64,000 nt of DNA, from the NCBI RefSeq assembly GCF_007995095.1, contig NZ_VOPY01000002.1, positions 682,001 to 746,000 on the forward strand, in the 5' to 3' direction. Every line of letters starts with the position of its first letter. Position 1 is the stretch's first letter. Made by a program: the position numbers and the translations under genes. Of this stretch, positions 26,365-30,198 are shown piece after piece. This DNA comes from Flavisphingopyxis soli. Lineage in GTDB: Bacteria > Pseudomonadota > Alphaproteobacteria > Sphingomonadales > Sphingomonadaceae. The notes beneath the pieces are model-generated. The model made no database searches, was not told the DNA's origin, and was given only the letters and a program-made list of their open reading frames with translations.

Positions 26365-27756
26365 TCAGTCGGCGAACAGCAGCACCGGGGTTTCGAGATA
26401 CTTGCGCAGCGCCTGGACGAAGCTTGCCGCATCCCAACCGTCGACGACGCGATGGTCGCACGAAATCGACAGGTTCATCAGTTTGCGCGCCTCGATATCG
26501 CCATTGGCGGTGAACATCGGGCGTTCGACGATCCGGTTGGGGCCGATGATCGCGACCTCGGGCTTGTTGATCACCGGTGTCGTTGCGACACCGCCGAGTG
26601 GGCCGAGCGAGGTGATCGTCAGCGTCGATCCCGACAGTTCGGTCGATTTCGCCTTGCCGCTGCGCGCCGCATCGGCGAGCCGACCGATCTCGCTTGCGAG
26701 CTGCCAGACGTTGCGGTCCTGCGCGTCGCGGATGACTGGCACCATCAGCCCGGCATCGGTCTGCGTCGCCATGCCGAGATGGATCGCGCCTGAGCGCGTC
26801 ACGATGCCCGCCTCGTCGTCATAACGCGCGTTGATCATCGGGAAATCGGGGATCGCCTTGCAGATCGCGGTGATGATCAGCGGCAGCAGGGTGAGCTTGG
26901 GCTTCGATCCGCGATTGGCGTTGAGATCGCCGCGCATTGTCTCGAGGTCGGTGACATCGATTTCCTCGACATAGGTGAAATGCGGGATGCTGCGCTTCGA
27001 TGCCGACATGTTGTCGGCAATCCGGCGGCGCATGCCGATGACCTTGATCGTCTCGTCGTCGCGCGTGGCCGAAGCCCCTGCCGCGCGATAGCCCTGCCCG
27101 CCGTTATACGACAGGAAGGCATCGAGATCGGCATGGCGAATACGGCCGTCGGCCGCTGGCTTGACGTCAGCAAGGTCGACGCCGAGGTCCTTGGCGCGCG
27201 CCCGTACGGCGGGCGAGGCAAGAACCTTTAGCCCTCTCTCTCCTCCAGGGGAGAGAGTTGGAGAGAGGGGCTGGCTAGGCGCCTCGCTCGCCCCCTCTCC
27301 GCTGCGACTAATCTCGGCTTCGCCTCGATAAGTCTCGCTGCCTCTCCCCTGAAGGGGAGAGGGTGATTCATCTCCGACTCCGGGGGTTTCGGCGGCCACG
27401 CGCGTGTCGTCCATGCCCGGACCGGCATCGGTCGCATCGACGACATCGGCTTCGCCCTGAGCGCTCGCCTGGGCAGCAGCCTCGTTGGCTTCCAGCACGT
27501 CGTCGGGCACCTCGCCGGCGACCTCGATCTCGACCAGCATCGATCCGATCGCGATGACGTCGCCTTCTTCGCCGGCGACCGCGACGATCTTGCCCGAGAC
27601 GGGAGCCTCCATCTCGACCGTCGCTTTGTCGGTCATCATGTCGGCGATCGGCGCGTCTTCCTCGACCGTGTCGCCCAGCTTGACGTGCCAGGCGACGATT
27701 TCAGCCTCGGCAATGCCTTCGCCGATATCGGGGAGATTGAAGGTGAATTTGGCCAT
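26365..27756 (-). CDS. bkdB: Branched-chain 2-oxoacid dehydrogenase E2 (lipoyl acyltransferase)
   Basis: This is the dihydrolipoamide acyltransferase core of the branched-chain 2-oxoacid dehydrogenase complex, 463 residues. A lipoyl domain (Lys44 in MTDKATVEME) is followed by an acidic linker, a peripheral-subunit-binding domain (about 178-215, ASPAVRARAKDLGVDL) and the catalytic domain ending with SCDHRVVDGWDAASF. The start is ATG 27756 (MAKFTFNLPDIGEG), because the upstream frame is a shadow of the E1 beta gene. Residues about 131-175 are encoded by an inserted palindromic repeat (separate entry). The last of the three genes, it lies 2 bp after E1 beta. Confidence 0.95.
   Translation of the reverse strand: MAKFTFNLPDIGEGIAEAEIVAWHVKLGDTVEEDAPIADMMTDKATVEMEAPVSGKIVAVAGEEGDVIAIGSMLVEIEVAGEVPDDVLEANEAAAQASAQGEADVVDATDAGPGMDDTRVAAETPGVGDESPSPLQGRGSETYRGEAEISRSGEGASEAPSQPLSPTLSPGGERGLKVLASPAVRARAKDLGVDLADVKPAADGRIRHADLDAFLSYNGGQGYRAAGASATRDDETIKVIGMRRRIADNMSASKRSIPHFTYVEEIDVTDLETMRGDLNANRGSKPKLTLLPLIITAICKAIPDFPMINARYDDEAGIVTRSGAIHLGMATQTDAGLMVPVIRDAQDRNVWQLASEIGRLADAARSGKAKSTELSGSTLTITSLGPLGGVATTPVINKPEVAIIGPNRIVERPMFTANGDIEARKLMNLSISCDHRVVDGWDAASFVQALRKYLETPVLLFAD
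27231..27364. repeat. Palindromic repeat inserted in frame in E2 coding sequence
   Basis: About 135 bp inside the E2 gene forms nested inverted repeats. One hairpin is CCTCTCCCC-TGAA-GGGGAGAGG at 27341-27362. The other end has CCCTCTCTC paired to GAGAGAGGG with a smaller GGAGAGAG hairpin inside. This is the CTCTCCCC/GGGGAGAG element common between genes in sphingomonads. Here it is translated into residues about 131-175 (SPSPLQGRGSETY ... LSPTLSPGGERG) without a stop or frameshift. It falls in the flexible linker just before the peripheral-subunit-binding domain. Confidence 0.85.
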
Positions 27757-27758
27757 GA

Positions 27759-28820
27759 TCAGTCTTTCAAAATCTTCTCGAGCGCGGTCTTGATCCGGAT
27801 CGGGCCGGGGAAATAGGCCCATTCAAGACTGTGCGGATAGGGGGTGTCGAAGCCGGTGACACGGATCACCGGAGCTTCGAGATGATAGAAACAGCGTTCC
27901 TGGACGAGCGCCGAGAGCTCGGCGCCAAAGCCGCTGGTGCGCGTCGCTTCGTGGACGATCATACAGCGGCCGGTCTTCCTGACCGACGTCTCGATCGCCT
28001 CGATGTCGAGCGGGACGAGGCTGCGCAGGTCGATTACCTCGGCATCGATGCCGAGTTCCTCGACAACCGCGAGCGCGACATGGACCATCGTTCCGTAAGC
28101 CAGCACCGTCACCGCTTCGCCGACGCGCACGATGTTCGCCTTGCCGAGTTCGATCCGGTAATAGTCCTTGGGCACGTCAGAGGCCGGATGCTTGGCCCAG
28201 GGCTGGACCGGACGGTCGTAATGACCATCGAACGGGCCGTTATAGATGCGCTTGGGTTCGAAGAACACGACCGGATCGTCGCACTCGATCGCCGCGATGA
28301 GCAGGCCCTTGGCGTCATAGGGAGTCGACGGAATGACCGTCTTGACCCCCGACATATGGGTGAACAGGCTTTCGGGCGACTGCGAGTGCGTCTGGCCGCC
28401 GAAGATGCCGCCGCCATAGGGCGAGCGAATCGTCATCGGCGCAATGAACTGGCCGACGCTGCGATAGCGGATACGCGCCGCTTCGCTGACGATCTGGTCG
28501 AGCCCGGGATAGATGTAATCGGCGAACTGGATTTCGGGCACGGGGCGCAGGCCATAGGCGCCCATGCCGACCGCCACGCCGATAATGCCGTTCTCCGAAA
28601 TCGGCGAATCGAACACGCGCGTCTTGCCGTGCTTTTCCTGCAGGCCCGCGGTGGCGCGAAAGACGCCGCCGAAATAGCCGACATCCTCGCCCAGGATGAC
28701 GACGTCGGGATCGCGGTCGAGCATGGTGTCGAGCGCCGAATTGATCGCCTCGATCATGTTCATGCCCTTGGGCGCCTTGGCCTCGGCGGGCTTTGCGTCG
28801 AGCGGCTTCACTTCGGCCAT
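27759..28820 (-). CDS. bkdA2: Branched-chain 2-oxoacid dehydrogenase E1 beta
   Basis: This is a 353-residue transketolase-like E1 beta subunit. Visible features are NSALDTMLDRDPDVVILGED, GVFRATAGLQEKHG, the FDSPISENGIIGVAVGMGAYG segment and the C-terminal VTGFDTPYPHSLEWAYFPG. The ATG 28820 (MAEVKPLDAK) overlaps the E1 alpha stop by 13 bases; the longer upstream frame is a shadow. There is a short Lys/Ala-rich N-terminal extension before MNMIEAINSAL. It pairs with E1 alpha to decarboxylate branched-chain 2-oxoacids. Confidence 0.95.
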   Translation of the reverse strand: MAEVKPLDAKPAEAKAPKGMNMIEAINSALDTMLDRDPDVVILGEDVGYFGGVFRATAGLQEKHGKTRVFDSPISENGIIGVAVGMGAYGLRPVPEIQFADYIYPGLDQIVSEAARIRYRSVGQFIAPMTIRSPYGGGIFGGQTHSQSPESLFTHMSGVKTVIPSTPYDAKGLLIAAIECDDPVVFFEPKRIYNGPFDGHYDRPVQPWAKHPASDVPKDYYRIELGKANIVRVGEAVTVLAYGTMVHVALAVVEELGIDAEVIDLRSLVPLDIEAIETSVRKTGRCMIVHEATRTSGFGAELSALVQERCFYHLEAPVIRVTGFDTPYPHSLEWAYFPGPIRIKTALEKILKD

Positions 28821-30088
28821 TTCGCGTCCTTCTCGGCAAGCGCCTGTTCCATCTGTTCGCGCAGGTGCCACGGCATGTCGGCATAGACGTCTTCGAACAT
28901 CGTCTCGAACGGCTGGTGGAGGCCGTGGCCGAGGACGCCGTTCTTCTCGGCCTCCTTGCCCGCCGCCTTGACCTCGTCGCTCAGTTCGGTGCGCAGCGCT
29001 TCGTGGCGATCGTCGTCCCACTCGCCCGAGGCAACGAGATGCGCCTTCAATCGCTCGATCGGGTCGCCAAGCGGCCAGGCGGTCTTTTCGTCGGCGGCGC
29101 GGTAGCCCGAGGGGTCGTCCGACGTGCTATGACCTTCGCTACGATAGGTGAAATGCTCGATCAGCGTCGGACCCTTGTTGGTCCGCGCCCGGTCGGCGGC
29201 CCAGCGCGTCGCGGCATAGACCGCGAGCGCATCGTTGCCGTCGACGCGGAGCGCAGCGATGCCGTAACCCAGCCCGCGCGCGGCAAAGGTCGTCCGCTCG
29301 CCGCCGGCAAAACCCGAAAACGAGCTGATCGCCCACTGGTTGTTGACGATGTTGAAGATGATCGGGGCGTTATAGACCGCGGCAAAGGTCAGCGCGGCGT
29401 GAAAATCGCCCTCGGCGGTAGATCCCTCGCCGCACCAGGTCGCGGCGATTCGCGTGTCGCCCTTGGCCGCGCTCGCCATCGCATAGCCGACCGCTTGCGG
29501 ATATTGCGTCGTGAGGTTGCCCGAGATCGAGAAGAAGCCGTGCTCGCGCGACGAATACATGATCGGCAACTGGCGCCCCTTGAGCGGGTCGGCGCTGTTC
29601 GAATAGATCTGGTTGATCATGTCGATCAACGGATAATCGCGAGCGATCAGAATACCTTGCTGGCGATAGCTGGGAAAGCACATGTCGTCGCGATCGAGCG
29701 CCATCGTCGCCGGGATCGCGACCGCTTCCTCACCGGTGCACTTCATGTAAAAGCTCGTCTTGCCCTGGCGTTGCGCGCGATACATGCGGTCGTCGAAGGC
29801 GCGGACGCGCAGCATGTATTTGAGCATCCGGCGCTTGGTCTCGGCATCGAGCTTGGGCGCCCAGGGGCCGACCGCCGCGCCGTCATCGTCGAGCACGCGG
29901 ACGAGACCATAAGCGTGATCGCGCATCGCGGCGGGATCGCTGTCCTCGGCCGGGCGCGGCGTTACGCCCGCCTTGAGGATCTCGACATGGCTGAAATCGG
30001 GCGCATCGCCCGGACGCGACGGCGGCTCGGGCACGTGCAGCGACAACGGCGCCAGGTTGCTCTTGGGTGTGCTCTGCCGATCGGCCAT
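28808..30088 (-). CDS. bkdA1: Branched-chain 2-oxoacid dehydrogenase E1 alpha
   Basis: This is a TPP-dependent E1 alpha subunit of about 426 residues starting at ATG 30088 (MADRQSTPKSNLAPL). An ATG 5 codons upstream is possible. The thiamine diphosphate motif is GEGSTAEGDFHAALTFAAVY...NNQWAIS. The phosphorylation-loop-like TYRSEGHSTSDDPSGYR and MKCTGEEAVAIPATMAL point to the branched-chain rather than the pyruvate enzyme. It is the first gene of the E1a-E1b-E2 operon. No E3 gene is present in the window. Confidence 0.94.
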   Translation of the reverse strand: MADRQSTPKSNLAPLSLHVPEPPSRPGDAPDFSHVEILKAGVTPRPAEDSDPAAMRDHAYGLVRVLDDDGAAVGPWAPKLDAETKRRMLKYMLRVRAFDDRMYRAQRQGKTSFYMKCTGEEAVAIPATMALDRDDMCFPSYRQQGILIARDYPLIDMINQIYSNSADPLKGRQLPIMYSSREHGFFSISGNLTTQYPQAVGYAMASAAKGDTRIAATWCGEGSTAEGDFHAALTFAAVYNAPIIFNIVNNQWAISSFSGFAGGERTTFAARGLGYGIAALRVDGNDALAVYAATRWAADRARTNKGPTLIEHFTYRSEGHSTSDDPSGYRAADEKTAWPLGDPIERLKAHLVASGEWDDDRHEALRTELSDEVKAAGKEAEKNGVLGHGLHQPFETMFEDVYADMPWHLREQMEQALAEKDAKWPK

Positions 30089-30198
30089 GGATCCATCCTG
30101 CAATCTGGCCTCGTTTCGGACCAGACTTTTATAATTTCCTGTGCGCGTATTATTATTTCAAAGTCGGCATTCGCGCAAGCCGACCGATCGTCAACGTG

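Follow-up and report, generated by a model that had tools for sequence, protein, structure and literature searches.

Palindromic insertions that are translated together with the gene that holds them are best known from Rickettsia. Rickettsia palindromic elements (RPEs) are repeats inserted in frame in protein genes, and MITEs are non-autonomous elements with inverted ends that are at times fused in frame to genes, according to the accessible part of one account (PMC10969869). Wolbachia palindromic elements (WPEs) appear in the accessible part of another (PMC3733652), which also places GTAG/CGTC REPs inside open reading frames, including those of UvrD/REP helicase and tRNA synthetases, with sphingomonads among the hosts, and reports that the recB REPs of two Xanthomonas occupy roughly one position. 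REPINs are described in the available text of PMC3116915 as inverted doublets of short palindromes that have a RAYT partner. A DUF559 protein for which a Vsr-like fold is predicted has been assigned to the PD-(D/E)XK superfamily, and a Caulobacter DUF559 protein, VsrA, has been proposed to act in mismatch repair (PMC12907096, accessible part).

The whole stretch of DNA analysed here (the window; 64,000 nt) contains a palindromic block within the E2 gene of a sphingomonad. A sequence-only reading had likened this block to Rickettsia palindromic elements. Set beside RPEs by description, the block resembles them in behaviour only. RPEs and WPEs are likewise palindromic repeats that lie in frame in unrelated protein genes and keep the reading frame. 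The block differs in that its host belongs to another order and in being GC-rich and C/T-armed. Its class further differs in having a candidate nuclease partner, and several families reuse one homologous linker.

REPIN/RAYT systems (REPtrons), as far as the available source describes them, have in common with the elements reported here an inverted-doublet unit, many mostly intergenic copies and a gene for a small single-domain nuclease that is flanked by matching sequence. The nuclease here is DUF559 (PD-(D/E)XK) rather than an HUH tyrosine transposase, and its gene lies between two ends. None of the REP tags GTAG, CTAC, CGTC and GACG occurs on either strand of 27226-27370, so that the block lacks both tags of the GTAG/CGTC REPs; E2 linkers and DUF559 are absent from the accessible text of PMC3733652. 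Because the tag and RAYT tests failed, we do not class the block as a REP. REPs inside genes, UvrD included, have already been published (PMC3733652, accessible part), and translated insertion as such is thus of a known kind. The elements resemble MITEs in having terminal inverted repeats in common with a larger gene-bearing element. They differ from MITEs in that the ends are themselves hairpins and a nuclease takes the place of a transposase as the candidate partner. Caulobacter VsrA belongs to the same PD-(D/E)XK domain family as the palindrome-flanked DUF559 proteins. Its proposed role is in mismatch repair, and the string 'palindrom' occurs 0 times in the accessible main text of PMC12907096. 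By analogy, the behaviour of the block appears nearest to that of RPEs, as translated palindromes, and of REPINs, as inverted doublets with a small nuclease. Among the matches listed in the open-licence literature, which leaves subscription papers largely outside, there was no report of a link between DUF559 and palindromic repeats or of repeats in E2 linkers, and no mention of the block's peptides.

The palindromic block in the E2 linker

Table 1. Features of the E2 locus and its inserted element (window positions)
Feature	Position	Strand	Evidence
E2 dihydrolipoamide acyltransferase gene, 463 aa	26368..27756, stop codon 26365-26367	-	Pfam Biotin_lipoyl, E3_binding, 2-oxoacid_dh
E1 beta subunit gene, adjoins E2	27762..28886, start approximate	-	reading frame; NCBIfam E1-beta models below cut-off
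E1 alpha subunit gene, E2 neighbourhood	28811..30103	-	reading frame; NCBIfam E1-alpha models below cut-off
Inserted palindromic element, E2 residues 131-176	27231..27364	-	inverted repeat, genomic copies, frame, pLDDT <50 over residues 106-175
Short palindromic end, GCCCTCTC..AGGGGAGAGAGTTGGAGAGAGGGG	27231..27270	.	layout as ends of own-genome DUF559-holding element C1:1266652-1267054
Long palindromic end that contains an inner stem-loop, ..CGCTGCGACTA..AAGTCTCGCTGCCTCTCCCCTGAAGGGGAGAGGG	27291..27364	.	recurrent own-genome unit; inverted copies flank sister-species DUF559 gene (L192)

C, G and L are our handles for contigs, genomes and loci. Pfam matches divide E2 into a lipoyl domain (residues 5-77), an E3_binding domain (178-211) and a catalytic domain (233-461). 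None of the NCBIfam equivalog models searched for the E2 substrate reached its own cut-off. By these domain positions, the block follows the acidic linker and directly precedes the peripheral-subunit-binding domain, as the sequence-only reading had proposed for residues about 131-175. That reading's inverted repeats of about 135 bp, in frame within E2, are also borne out. We find an inverted pair of palindromic ends that spans about 134 bp and is read on the minus strand.

An inverted-repeat search identified arms of 20 nt at 27236-27255 and 27342-27361 that are 90% complementary and have 86 nt between them. The two ends are unlike: one is a short palindrome, and the other, of about 73 nt, contains an extra inner stem-loop. 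Three of the six reading frames are open across the block, and the E2 frame yields the peptide PSPLQGRGSETYRGEAEISRSGEGASEAPSQPLSPTLSPGGERG. The whole E2 linker folds beyond chance (z = -3.9 against 40 codon shuffles), with the caveat that this z is rough (identical linkers L027 and L134 scored -9.1 and -5.7). In the predicted E2 structure (21-row alignment), pLDDT is below 50 for residues 106-175 and block means are 30-36 for residues 111-170, and the block forms part of the lowest-confidence stretch of the protein. An Rfam search of 26900-27800 never reached the gathering score, and its two sub-threshold matches were taken as chance.

Copies in the same genome

We identified 20 blastn matches to the block, itself included, in its own 2.59-Mb genome (E <= 1e-3). 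The 19 further matches, with identity of up to 90% over 72 nt, tie the block to repeats at other places in the genome, a check that the sequence-only reading had called for. The core CTCTCCCCTNNAGGGGAGAG occurs at 33 sites with at most three mismatches, two of them inside the block (0 for a reversed-pattern control). The long end recurs as a unit of about 72 nt. The surroundings of the copies were judged from the frames around 36 core sites, and most further matches lie outside conserved genes, judged from reading frames alone. When nine other units were translated, seven were stop-free in the frame used by E2.

One of these units, a related single palindromic end, lies in frame in a second conserved protein of this genome, a UvrD helicase, from residue 831. 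This insert lies between the UvrD_C domain (to residue 759) and a Tudor match at residues 909-946 (22.2 bits, cut-off 23.9). The genome also has a weak RAYT-type Y1_Tnp match in a 137-aa frame (C1:215316-215615), which lacks inverted flanks like those of the block.

Insertion and recurrence in the E2 linkers of relatives

E2 is present in 59 of 59 relatives. These genomes and 80 named loci gave 107 linkers, or 102 once five twice-seen genomes were removed; loci L048-L050 yielded no linker and were left out of the set. Motifs identified elements in 51 of the 102 Sphingomonadales linkers, and the remaining 51 contain no recognised element. This motif-based split is approximate: the B label of L083, whose genome has 1 forward and 3 reverse hits to the pattern, is probably false, and L087 and L114 are labelled 'none' yet have peptides that resemble families B and D. 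Comparison with relatives, also called for by the sequence-only reading, thus argues against the block being universal ancestral linker.

The 51 labelled linkers comprise 33 C/T-armed elements (families A or C), 17 of the CTGAGCYTGTCGAAG type (family B) and one of the GCAGGAGCCCAGG type (family D). In 408 control windows elsewhere in the same E2 genes, these motifs identified four C/T-armed and two C-type elements and none of family B or D. Of the 107 linkers, 42 had a codon-shuffle z below -3, and once duplicate rows are removed the figure is 40 of 102. Five Sphingorhabdus-like E2 linkers (L070, L071, L088, L095 and L112) contain a repeated TGACGTCA palindrome that is read as SDVT or TDVT and is possibly another small family.

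We mapped the labels onto a quick E2 tree built from an alignment that leaves out the linker. Gains and losses are inseparable among the changes counted, and labels A and C were pooled because they overlap. All four states together require 26 changes. The C/T-armed label requires 17, at least 9 of them forced by starred branches, and the B label 14, at least 12 of them so forced. The nearly identical E2 proteins of Sphingobium xenophagum (L069, family B) and Sphingobium sp. AS12 (L077, labelled C), a starred pair with branches of 0.0086 and 0.019, hold different element families. S. aurantiaca and S. faeni (labelled A) adjoin Sphingomonas sp. Leaf208 (labelled C).

The window species and its congener (L021/L022) form a starred pair within a 16-row clade. 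Their element is C/T-armed, they are the sole such pair in the clade, and the other 14 rows are element-free. The absence in this clade and the copies elsewhere in the genome support the proposal, made from the sequence alone, that a palindromic element of mobile type was inserted here.

The insert region is 38% identical to that of the sister species (19 of 50 columns), compared with 80% identity in the acidic linker, 94% in the lipoyl domain and 90% in the rest of the protein. Over 42 nt, part of the sister-species linker shows 97.6% identity to a repeat beside a DUF559 gene of the window's genome. We read these comparisons as decay plus turnover.

Palindromes flank DUF559 genes

A DUF559 gene in the window's genome lies between the repeats at C1:1266652 and 1267035. 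Its protein matches PDB 3hrl, an endonuclease-like protein (1.3e-20). DUF559 occurs in 44 of the 59 relatives, in 48 of the 50 named genomes and, phylum-wide, in 108 of 299 genomes. DUF559 matches close to E2-type genes were seen in at least four genomes (G032 C23:26009, G011 C88:10251, G007 C1:722613 and G034 C1:1607367).

We searched for C/T-armed hairpins, with a stem of 8 and no more than one mismatch, within 250 bp of the gene in DUF559 loci, which were the best-scoring matches plus loci of our choice and represent a subset of all DUF559 genes. This criterion was set after the first flanks had been seen; the phylum-wide set was fresh, and the criterion was fixed before its test. In the order set of 71 loci, hairpins lie on both sides in 60, on one side in 11 and on neither side in 0. 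The control for this set, 1325 windows of E2 loci, gave both sides in 1 and one side in 112. For the phylum set, 30 loci were fetched, and one was too short. Among the remaining 29, of which 26 come from other families, hairpins flank both sides in 16, one side in 13 and neither side in 0 (both sides in 1 and one side in 4 of 58 same-locus windows). Pooled, 76 of 100 DUF559 loci have hairpins on both sides and 100 of 100 on at least one, compared with 2 and 118 of 1383 controls. The flanking hairpins mostly lie about 30-100 nt from the DUF559 domain. An exact inverted repeat of at least 14 nt spans the DUF559 gene in 40 of 71 loci and in 10 of 1015 control windows, a count that leaves out L168, L170, L179 and L181 (contig ends) and L195 (the same as L160).

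Palindrome likeness correlates with DUF559 protein likeness across 99 loci (rho 0.169; the highest of 1000 permutations was 0.141), and the nearest-neighbour Jaccard index is 0.33 versus 0.14. This Mantel correlation is a weak one, to which shared ancestry of gene and flanks may contribute. The long end of the E2 insert is 84% identical over 80 nt to the flanks of the sister-species DUF559 gene (L192). This sister locus is the insert's best match among DUF559 loci, and the genome's own locus (L173) ranks second. Across 30 other genomes, the own DUF559 locus was the best match for the E2 linker in 2, with 1 expected by chance; the test took one DUF559 locus per genome, and most genomes have several. 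Family B elements, which account for 17 of the 51 labelled E2 linkers, were never seen flanking DUF559, suggesting that the E2 linker takes up elements of other origin too.

Full and empty elements have the same ends

Among the matches listed in nine genomes, we picked 60 inverted pairs of palindromes. All have the inverted doublet as their unit, which is a feature of REPINs. Spacing within the pairs is 63-149 nt in 54, 235-274 nt in three and 383-409 nt in three. Each of the three pairs with the widest spacing contains a DUF559 gene. Three full elements were compared end by end with empty elements, which consist of the ends alone, and the ends are the same.

The two ends of the G061 full element differ, one being TT-type and the other CC-type, and the empty elements of G061 likewise have one TT-type end and one CC- or TC-type end. 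The exception, a C/T variant at 641023, has the same asymmetry within its own sequence. The short end of the E2 insert has the layout of an end of the own-genome DUF559 element. Reading element flanks by eye, we saw no plain target-site duplication and established none, and we found no exact single-base empty site. G076 contains tail-to-tail palindrome dimers at a nearly fixed distance of 34-41 nt (e.g. C9:283280/283318) beside inverted pairs.

Two empty elements of the window's genome lie close to frames that can be named by resemblance. The element at C1:1088289-1088378 directly precedes a frame that presumably encodes ATP synthase epsilon, and that at C1:471373-471468 is near a presumably SufS-like frame.

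Proposed mechanism and alternatives

Insertion of the block into the E2 linker is well supported. The block is probably a complete, non-autonomous, palindrome-ended element of mobile type that lies in frame in the linker, is presumably translated and belongs to a large, DUF559-mobilised class of C/T-armed palindromic repeats. We infer an element that is REPIN-like, mobile, mobilised by DUF559, translated where tolerated and neutral.

In the full form of this class, a DUF559 gene (PD-(D/E)XK, Vsr-like) lies between two inverted ends. The empty form consists of the ends alone, usually 63-149 nt apart. The DUF559 protein would recognise the terminal palindromes and nick or cut them, and repair or recombination would then copy the element to new sites, mostly intergenic. 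A stop-free copy that lands in frame in a tolerant linker may survive as an extra disordered peptide and decay neutrally. We tentatively extend this scheme: the C/T-armed repeats of many Pseudomonadota could be the empty forms of a distinct DUF559-driven mobile class, which would recognise its own hairpins and recurrently seed translated linker or loop peptides in core enzymes, with the linker serving as an archive of families.

Translated palindromic insertion may also occur with DUF559 as mere cargo, or with DUF559 kept as an anti-repeat or repair enzyme, while another enzyme or replication slippage spreads the repeats. The lack of support from the same-genome rank test (2 of 30, chance 1) fits this explanation, as do the presence of families B and D in the same linker with no DUF559 link seen and the proposed role of the Caulobacter protein in mismatch repair (PMC12907096, accessible part). 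We nevertheless consider it unlikely, given that the flanking is two-sided, close and phylum-wide, that both ends are common to full and empty elements, and that palindrome type tracks protein type (rho 0.169). A different explanation is that the insert has been adopted, with selection favouring palindromic repeats in the linker for linker length or mRNA structure, for example. The 26 changes at one place in one gene on the quick E2 tree are compatible with such selection. Congener identity falls to 38% in the insert, against 80% in the acidic linker and 90-94% in the domains, which looks like relaxed constraint and makes adoption improbable.

Spread of REPIN-like elements by RAYT (Y1 tyrosine) transposases is a very improbable account of the repeats. 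The inverted-doublet layout is that of REPINs (PMC3116915, accessible part), and the window's genome has one weak Y1_Tnp match (1.6e-7). Across relatives, however, Y1_Tnp was found in 15 of 59 and is absent from the sister species (G001). An inverted flank of at least 14 nt occurs in 3 of 14 testable RAYT loci, and none of the three is C/T-type. The unit, the block and the L022 linker had no blastn match to 21 RAYT loci at E <= 0.01, and 27226-27370 lacks GTAG and CGTC on either strand. We reject RAYT as the mobiliser on the distribution of Y1_Tnp and the lack of C/T-type flanks among the 14 usable loci. The remaining explanation, an ancient and selected Pro/Gly/Ser-rich linker whose palindrome likeness comes from codon use, draws on the 51 of 102 linkers without a recognised element and on the richness of E2 linkers in Ala, Pro and acidic residues. 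It is contradicted by DNA identity of up to 90% over 72 nt to copies outside E2, by the 42 of 107 linkers (40 of 102 after removal of duplicates) in which codon-shuffle z is below -3, and by close relatives on the tree that hold different families at the same place, and it is the least credible of these explanations.

If the DUF559-mobilised reading is correct, a common repeat class would have a named candidate mobiliser, and DUF559, a small gene family of unsettled role, would gain a testable function. Translated palindromic insertion would recur among free-living sphingomonads, and one enzyme linker would hold a natural record of it. Whether such inserts are tolerated or useful would then be testable in an enzyme with a simple assay.

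Repeat abundance and inserts in other proteins

Three results go beyond the sequence-only reading: several unrelated families have repeatedly landed in the E2 linker, palindromes flank DUF559 genes, and inserts occur in proteins of other genomes. The B core CTGAGCYTGTCGAAG is present in 45 of the 50 named genomes. Of the 11 named genomes with B-labelled linkers, 10 have at least 12 forward B-core hits; the exception, L083, has 1. One C/T-armed core variant is likewise present in 45 of 50 named genomes; the maximum is 101 forward hits, and controls gave 0 or 1 for each genome and strand. Hits to this variant are few in some genomes that have a C/T-armed insert (L104 has 0 forward and 1 reverse), which indicates that the variant does not cover the class.

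A composite peptide search gave 29 matches in 12 of 59 genomes, and we inspected the six with the longest frames. Five of these inserts lie in conserved proteins: GlyS (G034 and G011), TrmD (G034), prolyl oligopeptidase (G029) and a glycine dehydrogenase subunit (G022). The sixth, at SerA (L272, G030), precedes the likely start and was rejected as coding. In-frame inserts thus span unrelated genes, namely those for E2 and UvrD in the window's genome and for GlyS, TrmD, prolyl oligopeptidase and glycine dehydrogenase in other genomes.

By eye, GlyS of G034 contains a second insert, of family C by its peptide, where GlyS of G011 holds family A. GlyS, the glycyl-tRNA synthetase beta subunit, seems to be a second recurrent site that has received two families (L270 and L275).
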